From: Sphingopyxis lindanitolerans
Lineage (GTDB): Bacteria > Pseudomonadota > Alphaproteobacteria > Sphingomonadales > Sphingomonadaceae
Direction: 5' to 3'
DNA length: 64,000 nt
Assembly (NCBI RefSeq): GCF_002993885.1
Contig: NZ_CM009578.1
Coordinates: forward strand, 561,251 to 625,250
The notes beneath the pieces were generated by a model that had not been told where the DNA came from, did not search any database, and saw nothing but the letters and a program-made list of their open reading frames with translations. A program made the position numbers and the translations under genes. Shown piece by piece: positions 22,924 to 48,910 of this stretch (positions are counted from its first letter, which is position 1; every line of letters begins with the position of its first letter).

Positions 22924-24333
22924 TCAAATATGCAGCGGCCGCCCGAACGCCGCCAGCACGCCCTCGTGCATCGTTTCGCTGAGCGTCGGATGCGGAAAGA
23001 CGGTGCCGATGAAATCATCCTCGACCAGTTCGGCGGTCTTGCCGATCGTATAGCCCTGGATCAGTTCGGTGACCTCGGCGCCGATCATGTGCGCGCCGAG
23101 CAGTTCGCCGGTCTTGGCGTCGAACACCGTCTTGGTGAAACCCTCGGCCTCCCCCAGCGCGATCGCCTTGCCGTTGCCGATGAAGGGGAAGGTTCCGGCC
23201 TTGACCTCGTAACCCAGCTCCTTCGCCTTCGCCTCGGTCAGCCCGACGCTGGCGATCTGCGGGCGGCAATAGGTGCAGCCGGGGATATTGCGGACGTCCA
23301 TCGCATGCGGATGGTTGCCAGCGATCGCCTCGACCGAAATGATCGATTCGTGCATCGCCTTGTGCGCGAGCCAGGGCGGAGCCGTGACGTCGCCGATCGC
23401 CCACAGGCCGGGGACGTTGGTGCGGCACATCGCGTCGGTGTCGATATGCCCCTTGGTCGTCTTCACGCCGAGCGTTTCGAGGCCGATATTCTCGGTGTTC
23501 GGGACGATGCCGATCGCGACAATCGCGTGGCTATATTCCGCAGATTCGACCTTGCCGTCCTTGCCCTTGATCTTGGCGGAGACGCCGGTCGCGGTCGCCT
23601 TCAATTCCTCGACCCCGGCGCCGGTGTGGATCGTCATCCCCTGCTTCTTCAGCGCCTTTTCAAGGAAGGCCGAGACGTCGGCATCCTCGACCGGAACGAC
23701 GCGGTCGAGCATTTCGACCACCGTCACTTCAGCCCCCATGTCGCTGTAAAAACTCGCGAACTCGATCCCGATCGCACCCGATCCGATGACGAGCAGCTTG
23801 GTCGGCATTTCGGGCGGGACGAGCGCGTGGCGATAGGTCCAGATGCGCTTGCCGTCGGCGGGCGCGAACGGCAGGTCGCGGGCGCGGGCGCCCGTCGCGA
23901 CGATGATATTCTTCGCGATCAGCGTTTCGCTGCCCTTCTCGCCCGTCACTTCGAGCTTGCCCGGTGCGGTCAGCTTGCCGGTGCCCATATGGACGGTGAT
24001 CTTGTGCTTCTTCATCAGGTGCGTGACGCCCTGATTGAGCTGCTTCGCCACCCCGCGCGAGCGTTTCACCACCGCGTCGATATCGGCGCTGATAGCGGCG
24101 GCTTTCAGCCCATAATCGCCCGCATGCTGCATATAATGATAAATCTCGGCCGAGCGCAGCAGCGCCTTGGTCGGGATGCAGCCCCAGTTGAGGCAGATAC
24201 CGCCAAGCAATTCGCGCTCGACGATCGCGGTCTTGAGCCCAAGCTGCGCCGCGCGGATCGCCGCGACATAGCCGCCGGGGCCCGAGCCGAGGACGATGAG
24301 GTCGTAATTGGTGTCAGCCAAGGTCTGCTCCAT
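22924..24333 (-). CDS. lpdA: Dihydrolipoyl dehydrogenase
   Basis: A 469-residue E3 flavoprotein. The FAD site is IVLGSGPGGYVAAIRAAQLG, the redox disulfide is Cys47/Cys52 in GGICLNWGCIPTK, the NAD site is VIGSGAIGIEFASFY, and the C-terminal active-site His lies in HPTLSE. It reoxidises dihydrolipoamide for the pyruvate dehydrogenase complex, whose E2 is encoded just upstream at 24808-26127. The ATG is preceded by GGGAGAGGGGATCAAA, in which the ribosome site is formed by the end of the inverted repeat that borders the DUF559 gene. Confidence 0.95.
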   Translation of the reverse strand: MEQTLADTNYDLIVLGSGPGGYVAAIRAAQLGLKTAIVERELLGGICLNWGCIPTKALLRSAEIYHYMQHAGDYGLKAAAISADIDAVVKRSRGVAKQLNQGVTHLMKKHKITVHMGTGKLTAPGKLEVTGEKGSETLIAKNIIVATGARARDLPFAPADGKRIWTYRHALVPPEMPTKLLVIGSGAIGIEFASFYSDMGAEVTVVEMLDRVVPVEDADVSAFLEKALKKQGMTIHTGAGVEELKATATGVSAKIKGKDGKVESAEYSHAIVAIGIVPNTENIGLETLGVKTTKGHIDTDAMCRTNVPGLWAIGDVTAPPWLAHKAMHESIISVEAIAGNHPHAMDVRNIPGCTYCRPQIASVGLTEAKAKELGYEVKAGTFPFIGNGKAIALGEAEGFTKTVFDAKTGELLGAHMIGAEVTELIQGYTIGKTAELVEDDFIGTVFPHPTLSETMHEGVLAAFGRPLHI

Positions 24334-24339
24334 TTTGAT

Positions 24340-24803
24340 CCCCTCTCCCATTTAGGGAGAGGGAGGGGCCCATTGCGCAGCAATGGGAGGGTGAGGGTCC
24401 GAGAGTGCGGCTAAAATCGCCGCGAGCACTCCCGAAAAATTTCTGGTTACGTCATTGTTCCAGACGCGGAGGATGCGATAGCCCTTGTCGGTCAGAAATG
24501 CATCGCGTCGCAAGTCCTGTTCGCTATCGGCGTGCTGCGAGCCATCGACTTCGACAATCAGTCGCTGCGCCTGGCAGACGAAGTCGGCGATAAACGGCCC
24601 GATGGGTTGCTGCTTGCGGAATTTGAAACCGCCGAGGCGGTGACCACGCAACGCGCCCCACAGCCTGGTTTCTTCGGGTGTCATATCGCGCCTTAATCGC
24701 TTGGCGCGTTCCAGCGTCTGCTGCGAATAGCCCGCCGTCACACCCTCACCCTCCCACGCACTGACGCGCGCGGGCCCCTCCCTCTCCCTTGAAGGGAGAG
24801 GGG
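24340..24803. mobile_element. Candidate DUF559 cassette bounded by inverted REP-like repeats
   Basis: The left end (24340-24399) and right end (24741-24803) are inverted copies. Each has a terminal hairpin CCCTCTCCC-N5-GGGAGAGGG, then AGGGGCCC, a variable stretch and GGGAGGGTGAGGGT. The DUF559 gene starts in the right repeat and stops in the loop of the left hairpin. The unit ends 4 bases from the pdhC stop and 6 bases from the lpdA start, so it sits inside an operon without breaking it. Mobility is inference. Confidence 0.6.
24352..24741 (-). CDS. DUF559 (Vsr/PD-(D/E)XK-like) endonuclease domain protein
   Basis: A 129-residue protein from a GTG start. Conserved features are MTPEETRLWGALR, FRKQQPIGPFIADFVC and LIVEVDGSQH, giving acidic residues Asp53, Glu64 and Asp66 and His70, then GYRILRVWNNDV. 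This is the compact DUF559 fold related to very-short-patch repair and restriction-type nucleases. The last 15 or so residues (rich in Pro) and the stop are encoded by the left inverted repeat. The gene lies between pdhC and lpdA, unrelated to their function. Its enzymatic role is unproven in the family as far as I know. Confidence 0.88.
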   Translation of the reverse strand: MTAGYSQQTLERAKRLRRDMTPEETRLWGALRGHRLGGFKFRKQQPIGPFIADFVCQAQRLIVEVDGSQHADSEQDLRRDAFLTDKGYRILRVWNNDVTRNFSGVLAAILAALSDPHPPIAAQWAPPSP

Positions 24804-24807
24804 TTGG

Positions 24808-26127
24808 TCAAGCCACCAGCCCCAGCGGGTTCTCCACCAGTTCCTTGAAGGTCTTCATCAACGCCGCCCCATCCGCCCCGTCGATCGCGCGGTGGTCGAA
24901 GCTGCCGGTGGCCGACATGACGGTGGCGATCGCCAGCGCGTCGTCGACGACATAAGGCCGCTTCTCGCCCGCGCCGATCGCCATGATCATGCCCTGCGGT
25001 GGGTTGATCACCGCGGTGAACTGCTTGATCCCCATCATCCCCATGTTCGAGATGCTGGCGGTGCCGCCCTGATATTCATTGGGCTGGAGCTTGCCTTCCT
25101 TCGCGCGTCCCGCAAGCTCGGCCATTTCGGTCGAGATTTTCGACATCGACTTGCTGCCCGCGTCGGTGATGATCGGGGTGATCAGCCCGCCCGGAATGCT
25201 GACCGCGACCGAGATGTCGGCGCGGCTGTACTGGCGCATCACGTCGCCGCCGAACGAGACATTGCACGCGGGCACACGCTCGAGCGCGACCGCGAGCGCC
25301 TTGATCAGCAGATCGTTGACGCTGAGCTTGACGCCGCGCCCTTCGAGACTGGCGTTGAGCTCGCCGCGCAGCTTGAGCAGCGCGTCGAGCCGGATGTCGA
25401 CGGTCAGATAGATGTGCGGCGCTTCCTGCATCGACTGGGTCAGGCGGCGCGCGATCGTCTTGCGCATACCCGACAGTTTCTCGTCGGTGTGCGGGATGCC
25501 GAAATCGGGGATCGGGCCGGCGACCGCGGGTGCCGATGCCGCGGCGGGCGCTGCCGGCGTCGCAGGAGCCTGAGCGGGTGCCGCCGGGGCGCTCGCCGAC
25601 ACACCATCCAGGTCGGCCTTGACGATGCGGCCGCCGGGGCCAGTGCCGGTGATCGCCGACAGGTCGATGCCCCGCTCGGCGGCGAGGCGCTTGGCGAGCG
25701 GGCTGGCCTTCACCCTCTCTCCCTTCTCCGTCGCCCCCGCGGCGGCGGGGACCGCTGGAGTTGGAGCGGCTTCGCTAGCGGCCCCCGCCTCTGCGGGGGC
25801 GACGTCTTTGGGTTCGGCCGCCCTTGCTTCCTCCTTTACGGCAGGTGCAGGCGTCGGCGCGGCCTTGGCTGCGCTCGCATCCTCTCCCTCGCCCGCGATC
25901 ACCGCGATCACGGTGCCGACCTTCACATTCTCGCTGCCTTCGGGGACCAGAATCTGGCTGATCACGCCATCGTCGATCGCCTCATATTCCATCGTCGCCT
26001 TGTCGGTCTCGATCTCCGCCAGCAGGTCGCCCGACTGGACGGTGTCGCCTTCCTTGACCAGCCATTTGGCGAGTGTCCCTTCCTCCATCGTCGGCGAAAG
26101 GGCGGGCATTTTGAGTTCGATCGGCAT
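24808..26127 (-). CDS. pdhC: Pyruvate dehydrogenase E2, dihydrolipoamide acetyltransferase
   Basis: A 439-residue E2. An N-terminal lipoyl domain has Lys43 in [13 protein letters not shown]. An Ala/Pro/Glu-rich linker follows, then a peripheral subunit-binding domain ([32 protein letters not shown]), a second linker, and the catalytic domain ending with [11 protein letters not shown] (active-site His and Asp). The single lipoyl domain and [15 protein letters not shown] start are typical of alphaproteobacterial PDH E2. The ATG was chosen at the lipoyl domain; the upstream frame is not domain sequence. The E1 genes are not in the window. Confidence 0.95.
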
Positions 26128-43712: not shown

Positions 43713-43720
43713 TCTATACT

Positions 43721-43830
43721 CCCCTCCCGCTTGCGGGAGGGGCCGGGGGAGGGCCTGTCCGCAAACGAAAATCGAAACTTTCTCGAAGGGAACAGGCCCT
43801 CCCCTAACCCCTCCCGCAAGCGGGAGGGGG
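43721..43830. repeat. Inverted repeat element upstream of pccA
   Basis: CCCCTCCCGC-TTGCGGGAGGGG at the left end and CCCTCCCGCAAGCGGGAGGG at the right end are hairpins in inverted order; further in, GAGGGCCTGT pairs with ACAGGCCCTC. It is one of the C/G-rich repeats of this window. Its left edge provides the pccA ribosome-binding sequence. Confidence 0.75.
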
Positions 43831-48730: not shown

Positions 48731-48907
48731 CCCCTCTCCCCTTGCGGGAGAGGGTTGCGAAAACTTGGCGGCTTGCCGCCTAGTTGAAGCTGGGTGAGGG
48801 GTTGCGGTCCAAAGGACCGCGCGAGCGTCGCTCGCAACCCCTCATCCAACTGCGGCTAGCCGCTGAAGCGGCAAGCCTTCGTATCCTTCTCCCGCAAGGG
48901 GAGAAGG
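48731..48907. repeat. Long palindromic repeat element between mce and mutase
   Basis: Outer hairpins CCCTCTCCC-CTTGC-GGGAGAGGG (48732-48754) and CTTCTCCCGC-AAGGGGAGAAGG (48885-48907) bracket inverted pairs such as TGAGGGGTTGCG (48795-48806) with CGCAACCCCTCA (48833-48844). The first hairpin has the same arms as the two ends of the DUF559 cassette at 24340-24803. The element ends 3 bases before the mce stop. Confidence 0.75.
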
Positions 48908-48910
48908 ACT

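Follow-up and report, generated by a model that had tools for sequence, protein, structure and literature searches.

DUF559 nuclease genes are often bracketed by type-matched palindromic repeats in Sphingopyxis and other bacteria

A small DUF559 gene located between pdhC and lpdA of Sphingopyxis lindanitolerans is bracketed by inverted palindromic half-elements, and comparison with its relatives leaves us almost certain that the partnership between DUF559 genes and such palindromes is real. The evidence suggests the nuclease as a mover or maintainer of the repeats. That the enzyme acts on them is probable, and that it also moves them is proposed here tentatively. It is reasonably likely that DUF559 genes of this kind supply the enzyme in an enzyme-repeat system with the layout of a RAYT REPtron. 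DUF559 is a widespread family that is still listed in Pfam as being of unknown function, and we know of no named partner enzyme for many G-rich intergenic hairpins. The type-by-type match between DUF559 and G-rich hairpins gives each of them a testable role.

The locus was studied within a 64,000-nucleotide stretch of the genome, the whole of which is referred to as the window. In the pyruvate dehydrogenase operon, pdhC (E2; 24808..26127, minus strand; Pfam 2-oxoacid_dh, lipoyl and E3_binding) and lpdA (E3; 22924..24333, minus strand; Pfam Pyr_redox_2 and dimerisation domains) are separated by 474 bases, which are occupied by a small gene and a pair of inverted half-elements. The Pfam domains agree with both gene identities given in the preliminary description, which had placed the insertion in this operon. 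The DUF559 gene (24352..24741, minus strand) encodes 129 amino acids with a predicted Vsr/EDxHD-like PD-(D/E)XK fold. On its 3' side lies a type-A half-element (24340..24398, plus strand) with an outer hairpin at 24341-24363, an inner hairpin at about 24369-24387 and a G-rich tail, GGGAGGGTGAGGGT, directed toward the gene. The inverted type-A half-element on the 5' side (24742..24803, minus strand) carries an outer hairpin at 24780-24802, a weaker inner hairpin and a tail (24742-24756) that stands immediately 5' of the GTG start and is Shine-Dalgarno-like by eye. The bracketing repeats, described beforehand as about 60 bp long, measured 59 and 62 bp, and the 4-6 bases said to be left to each neighbour were recovered as 4 to the pdhC stop (24808) and 6 to the lpdA ATG (24333). 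The gene had also been described as beginning in one repeat and ending in the hairpin loop of the other; the stop (TAA, 24352-24354) does lie in the loop, but the GTG start (24741) lies just outside the repeat, against its inner edge. A stop within the loop is not general, being found in 3/9 type-A genes, while the reading frame passes beyond the hairpin in the other 6. A purine-rich repeat edge precedes lpdA. Two stretches look, from the sequence, like ribosome sites because of their position: the tail adjoins the GTG start, and the outer edge lies a short way upstream of the lpdA ATG.

The inverted arms comprise 24340-24371/24772-24803 (32 nt, 91% identity) and 24384-24398/24742-24756 (15 nt, 100%). 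In each type-A half-element, CCCTCTCCC-N5-GGGAGAGGG forms the outer hairpin. It is joined by a second hairpin, which is variable, and by a purine-rich tail with GGGAGGGTGAGGGT at its end; both tails face the DUF559 gene. Folding of the two halves as single-stranded DNA yielded -18.7 and -15.2 kcal/mol, with z=-5.25 (0/200 shuffles as good) and z=-2.75 (2/200), respectively. The arm CCCTCTCCC had 6 matches in the window against 0.67 expected, a number reached by 0/100 shuffles, and the pattern CCCTCTCCC-N3-8-GGGAGAGGG occurred at 6 sites in the 4.37-Mb genome, with 0 for the reversed pattern. A third such hairpin was present at 48732-48754, as had been claimed. It belongs to an element without a gene, about 180 bp long (48732..48910, unstranded) and built on the plan of the DUF559 brackets, in the order outer hairpin, inner hairpin, GGGTGAGGGG tail and inverted counterpart; similar elements occur at L008 and L009. 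A gene-less, REPIN-like tail-to-tail pair of type-C1 half-elements (43719..43830, unstranded), flanked by one ORF of biotin carboxylase type and one resembling biotin synthase, was also present; its ends are of the kind found around this genome's C1 nuclease (L001). Four DUF559 genes were identified in the genome, each bracketed, by differing repeat types: A in the window, C1 (CCCCTCCCGC..GCGGGAGGGG-YYRGGGGAGGGC) at L001, and type D with its near variant (CCTCCCC..GGGGAGGGGGACC..GGTGGAGGGG) at L003 and L004.

The ORF at 24352-24741 (minus strand) matched DUF559 (PF04480) with E=1.6e-37 and 128.2 bits, the curated cut-off being 20.6. Residues D53, E64, D66, H70 and D76 were all present and invariant among 37 relatives, and the solved structure of a relative, PDB 3hrl, was matched with E=9e-24; sequence hits in PDB at E>=0.055 were taken as chance and disregarded. 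The fold and the catalytic-type residues fit a Vsr/EDxHD-like PD-(D/E)XK nuclease, and nuclease activity is predicted. At E<=0.001, Pfam returned DUF559 and MTES_1575 only, and no HUH/Y1 tyrosine transposase domain. The Foldseek and VIA-align lists also include mitoribosomal and FASTK-type proteins. PADLOC matches bearing on a defence role were weak, the best being DpdF (E=1.7e-4) over 47 residues of a 1078-position model, and no methylase gene directly adjoins the DUF559 gene of the window. The dN/dS ratio was 0.08 among type-A genes and 0.14 among those of the long type B, with dS near saturation; these values point to strong purifying selection on the DUF559 genes.

The generality of the bracketing was evaluated by scoring the best local match between the 350 bases upstream of the DUF559 domain and the reverse complement of the 350 bases downstream. 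Loci with an inverted flank match of at least 40 were counted as bracketed, a limit set after the first controls, with a maximum of 38, had been viewed. The four loci of the S. lindanitolerans genome scored 60 (window) and 66, 81 and 61. Among relatives in 60 genomes, this one included, 84/105 loci were bracketed compared to 0/282 controls, the 105 being what remained of 111 matches after removal of 2 weak ones (frames >1700 aa), 2 at contig ends and 2 with short flanks; within Sphingopyxis, the count was 81/96. A phylum-wide sample of 69 loci among the matches listed, one per genome and drawn from 112 positive genomes, contained 36 bracketed loci (4/4 in the same family, 20/41 in other Alphaproteobacteria and 12/24 in others), with 1/137 among controls. 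In a named set of 80 loci, 77 were scored (L262, L283 and L302 were left out). Of these, 62 were bracketed when the better of two gene-end placements was taken and 40 with the single placement, with controls at 0/289 either way; omitting six Sphingopyxis type-A loci left 56/71 by the better placement. The second placement was introduced to deal with matches that extended into the repeat, the last residues of the query being repeat-derived. The positive named records include Nitrospira, Gastranaerophilales, Doudnabacteria, Rokubacteria and Binatia. Among plasmids, 45 records had a DUF559 match and ten of them were sampled; 7/10 (better placement) or 6/10 (single) were bracketed, with controls at 0/20 either way. 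The positives include 4/4 Deinococcus loci (one by the second placement only) and one of three cyanobacterial loci, that from Pseudanabaena; the remaining two and 1/2 from Azospirillum fell below the limit. A DUF559 match was present in 3 of 50,697 phage records. Scores below 40 were obtained for 21/105 relatives, 33/69 loci of the phylum sample and 15/77 named loci. In Deinococcus and Sphingomonas, the DUF559 gene likewise lies inside hpa, paa or suf gene clusters.

Chance bracketing was rejected on the basis of the pooled controls, in which 1/728 shifted windows and 0/135 other ORFs of the same loci were bracketed. The same counts oppose passive hitch-hiking, in which G-rich palindromes are common between genes and small genes merely end up among them. 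The repeats are indeed widespread, and the pdhC-lpdA junction of G077 carries a type-B hairpin alongside an unrelated insert; against this stand the controls and the preference of each half for its own partner over the other DUF559 genes of the genome (77/96, see below), and we regard hitch-hiking as the least probable of the explanations considered.

The arrangement of the half-elements varied among loci. A motif rule applied to 182 positive loci assigned 103 as tail-in and 11 as tail-out with the hairpins inside (L182, L187, L199, L219, L286, L288, L292, L300, L305, L322 and L328), leaving 68 unassigned by the rule; Deinococcus L514-L516 are also tail-out by eye. Nested repeats were observed at the 3' end of some nuclease genes, where a half-element of another type, CCTTCTCCC...GGATGAGGGG, is present in L344, L352 and L438 and absent from their relatives L335, L337 and L357. 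Cyanobacterial palindromes were AT-richer (CCCCTAAATCCCC..AATT..GGGG), as in L519 (Pseudanabaena plasmid) and L518 (Picosynechococcus, score 34); the repeat sequence may therefore vary by host while the layout remains constant.

The nuclease type and the repeat type mostly matched and diverged together. In the 26 genomes that have two or more DUF559 loci, the 5' half was best matched by its own 3' half, and not by that of another DUF559 gene, in 77/96 cases, where 26 were expected. Protein identity correlated with repeat similarity across 4971 between-genome pairs that share no flanks (rho 0.53, reached by 0/300 permutations). The median repeat score exceeded 70 at protein identities of at least 70% (14 pairs) and was 20-22 below 45%. 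The repeat-DUF559 association that the preliminary description had wished to see checked elsewhere is thus general (84/105, 36/69 and 62/77 loci) and largely type-specific.

A RAYT-type repeat was rejected as an identity for the half-elements: of the 168 examined, 161 had a stem of at least 6, and 3 of these 161 carried a GT[AG]G hairpin foot. This result also bears on the idea that the repeats are spread by RAYT or another transposase and that DUF559 is a structure-specific or mismatch nuclease kept alongside as a caretaker, for example resolving hairpins so that palindromes persist. The foot, which is the mark of RAYT repeats, is confined to those 3/161 half-elements, and type-by-type matching with co-divergence exceeds what a general caretaker would need; we judge this explanation improbable.

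For 71 Sphingopyxis genomes, the number of repeats was compared with nuclease presence. Repeats of types D, C1 and C2 were counted as exact pattern matches, a reversed control pattern giving 0 in every genome. The patterns were derived from nuclease flanks, and the nuclease types were assigned by identity limits set after viewing the lists, from the best approximately 150 matches listed, which reach below the identities used. Median counts with and without the own nuclease were 28.5 versus 7 for D (34 genomes with it), 10 versus 2.5 for C1 (23 genomes) and 8.5 versus 3 for C2 (16 genomes). Seven of the ten DUF559-free genomes had 0-2 D+C1+C2 repeats and three had 7, 11 and 15, while the median was 32 in the 61 genomes with a DUF559 match. 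In tree-corrected regressions, the own-type nuclease was a strong predictor with p 1e-6 (D), 8e-7 (C1) and 9e-5 (C2), and after subtraction of the two flanking copies with p 1e-5, 9e-5 and 0.006, respectively; the correction for kinship is approximate, since the tree was built from a single locus (parts of pdhC and lpdA; G092 by pdhC alone). The pairing was not exclusive. The C2 nuclease predicted D repeats (b 1.24, p=4e-5) nearly as the D nuclease did (b 1.31), and the D and C2 nucleases weakly predicted C1 repeats (p=0.03 and 0.006). Many D repeats were found without a D nuclease in G077 (98), G065 (71) and G002 (50), and G024 held 29 C1 repeats without a C1 nuclease. Past presence of a nuclease followed by its loss, or cross-action, could account for these exceptions.

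The multi-copy form of types C and D is the gene-less half-element. Type D half-element matches ranged from 0 to 182 per genome, and among 150 C1 sites listed, from the first genomes, 18 adjoin a DUF559 gene. Among the C1 matches listed, 38 tail-to-tail pairs lay within 120 bp compared to 3 head-to-head pairs, and 21 of the 38 had a spacer of 27-29 nt. For type A, by contrast, 45/47 halves adjoin a nuclease gene by hand count, and the remaining two form a mixed gene-less pair, apparently at the same place in two genomes (L341 and L348). Palindrome number tracked nuclease presence for D, C1 and C2 and not for type A. Since type A is nearly devoid of gene-less copies (2/47), it is types C and D that carry the claim of repeat spread.

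Empty pdhC-lpdA sites, which the preliminary description had proposed to look for in relatives, were present in 18 of the 71 Sphingopyxis junctions; 9 held type A, 14 type B and 29 other inserts, and 1 was unreadable. The empty joints consist of 5-14 bases, mostly TAACATGGCTGAC. Type B is a different DUF559 gene with different half-elements, at another distance from the pdhC stop. The nuclease was co-directional with the operon in 23/23 filled joints, and empty and filled states alternated between near neighbours in the tree (G027/G003, G068/G029 and G004/G067). The joint resembles an insertion hot spot, with inserts other than A or B of 55-1045 bp in 29/71 genomes, including a 221-bp insert in six genomes, a 344-bp insert in three genomes and four inserts near 1 kb. 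Among these 29 joints, lone hairpins were noted by eye in L162 (G079) and, in imperfect form, in L165 (G064), a pattern expected had the gene and one half been deleted. The G077 junction, another of the 29, also by eye retains its type-B hairpin next to the unrelated insert.

Presence and absence at one site, together with inverted ends and gene-less derivatives, would be consistent with an ordinary insertion sequence in which DUF559 is the transposase and the gene-less copies are MITEs. Yet among 105 loci, 0/175 within-genome nuclease pairs were at least 80% identical and 2/175 at least 60%, whereas an ordinary insertion sequence should leave near-identical copies; the nuclease is under apparently strong purifying selection, and no constant target-site duplication was found among the many pairs of loci with and without the element that were listed. 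The insertion sequence was rejected on the first two grounds and is regarded as very improbable. The best relative in another genome had a median identity of 85%, and 85/89 loci with a best relative at least 70% identical shared flanking DNA and hence the same place. The earlier notion of a cassette travelling with its gene did not survive these two comparisons (0/175 and 85/89). With a single copy per type, relatives at the same place and low dN/dS, the gene appears to be a resident with a function.

The sister genomes G015 and G060 were also compared. Their aligned flanks were 93-100% identical, mostly 98-99%, and at two inspected sites one of them has a D-type pair that the other lacks; the joints there also differ in further respects, as in allele replacement. 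The regions L526/L531 and L528/L532 differ more widely, and L527/L529 align without gaps. The counterpart in G060 of the G015 D-nuclease locus was not a clean empty site, and no cleavage or transposition event and no clean insertion was seen in the compared loci.

Filled and empty alleles of one site (23 with DUF559 and 18 empty, of 71) are what a free-standing homing endonuclease gene would leave. DUF559 would then cut the empty allele at particular intergenic sites and be copied in by repair, with the palindromes as portable insulating ends and the gene-less pairs as decayed remains. Against this, gene-less type D half-elements outnumber the genes (up to 182 per genome), C1 pairs have a regular tail-to-tail spacing unlike that of remnants, the same junction holds two element types at differing distances from the pdhC stop, and homing itself does not predict a type-matched repeat number. 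We consider homing unlikely, while ranking it above the caretaker.

The preferred reading, an enzyme acting on its own repeats, can be put as follows. A nuclease gene present once per type sits between two inverted half-elements, each with an outer hairpin, often an inner hairpin and a G-rich tail, and half-elements of types C and D exist gene-less too, those of C1 mostly as tail-to-tail pairs. The nuclease may recognise the hairpin-plus-tail of its own type and nick or cut the element when single-stranded or extruded, and repair copying could then carry gene-less pairs to further intergenic sites. The gene would remain at few tolerated sites, with gain, exchange and loss there via recombination between relatives. 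Half-elements are probably tolerated within closely packed operons such as pdhC-lpdA, where their purine-rich, Shine-Dalgarno-like edges would keep the downstream gene from being silenced. In its widest form, this reading would describe a second, independent mobile-palindrome system, in which G-rich hairpin pairs of matching type are spread through break-and-copy repair by a nuclease of the Vsr/homing-endonuclease fold, and not by a transposase. The system would extend over Pseudomonadota, Nitrospirota, Deinococcota, Cyanobacteriota and other phyla besides, and would be the main role of most DUF559 proteins; we offer this as a speculative possibility.

Several known systems share features with the one described here. 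Gene-less inverted pairs between genes, with type D ranging from 0 to 182 matches per genome, are reminiscent of MITEs and other small mobile sequences; the DUF559 partner differs in being a predicted nuclease without known strand-transfer activity, and target-site duplication was not found in the compared loci. EDxHD homing endonucleases such as I-Bth0305I have the Vsr fold, but the DUF559 genes studied here are bracketed by type-specific palindromes with many gene-less copies. Unlike the Vsr mismatch endonuclease setting, the DUF559 gene of the window has no directly adjoining methylase gene. Caulobacter intergenic repeats were reportedly described by Chen and Shapiro (2003). The VsrA protein of Caulobacter belongs to DUF559, and its paper makes no mention of palindromes. 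In the accessible portions of the open PMC literature (including PMC12907096, PMC3733652, PMC9403480 and PMC9927313), with most subscription papers outside this coverage, no link between DUF559 and palindromes was found.

The closest likeness is to the REPtron. According to the sources consulted, the TnpA_REP/RAYT gene is flanked by its own palindromes and its presence correlates with palindrome number, gene-less inverted doublets (REPINs) occur, and more than one type per genome is possible (PMC8266576, PMC6006769); TnpA_REP is mostly single-copy, without evidence of mobility, and often correlated with REP abundance (PMC8266576). The DUF559 gene is likewise flanked by its own palindrome family, present as a single copy per type and accompanied by gene-less inverted pairs. 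The differences concern the enzyme, a Vsr/EDxHD nuclease fold as opposed to the HUH tyrosine transposase of RAYT, and the half-element, which lacks the GT[AG]G foot (3/161) and bears, 3' of the hairpin, a G-rich tail that lies outside in a minority of loci. The comparison with RAYT and REP drawn at the outset proved apt, as the gene is flanked by its own repeats, one copy per type is found per genome and repeat number tracks the gene. A RAYT-like system with an unrelated enzyme would make the question of how palindromes spread reducible to a cleavage assay.
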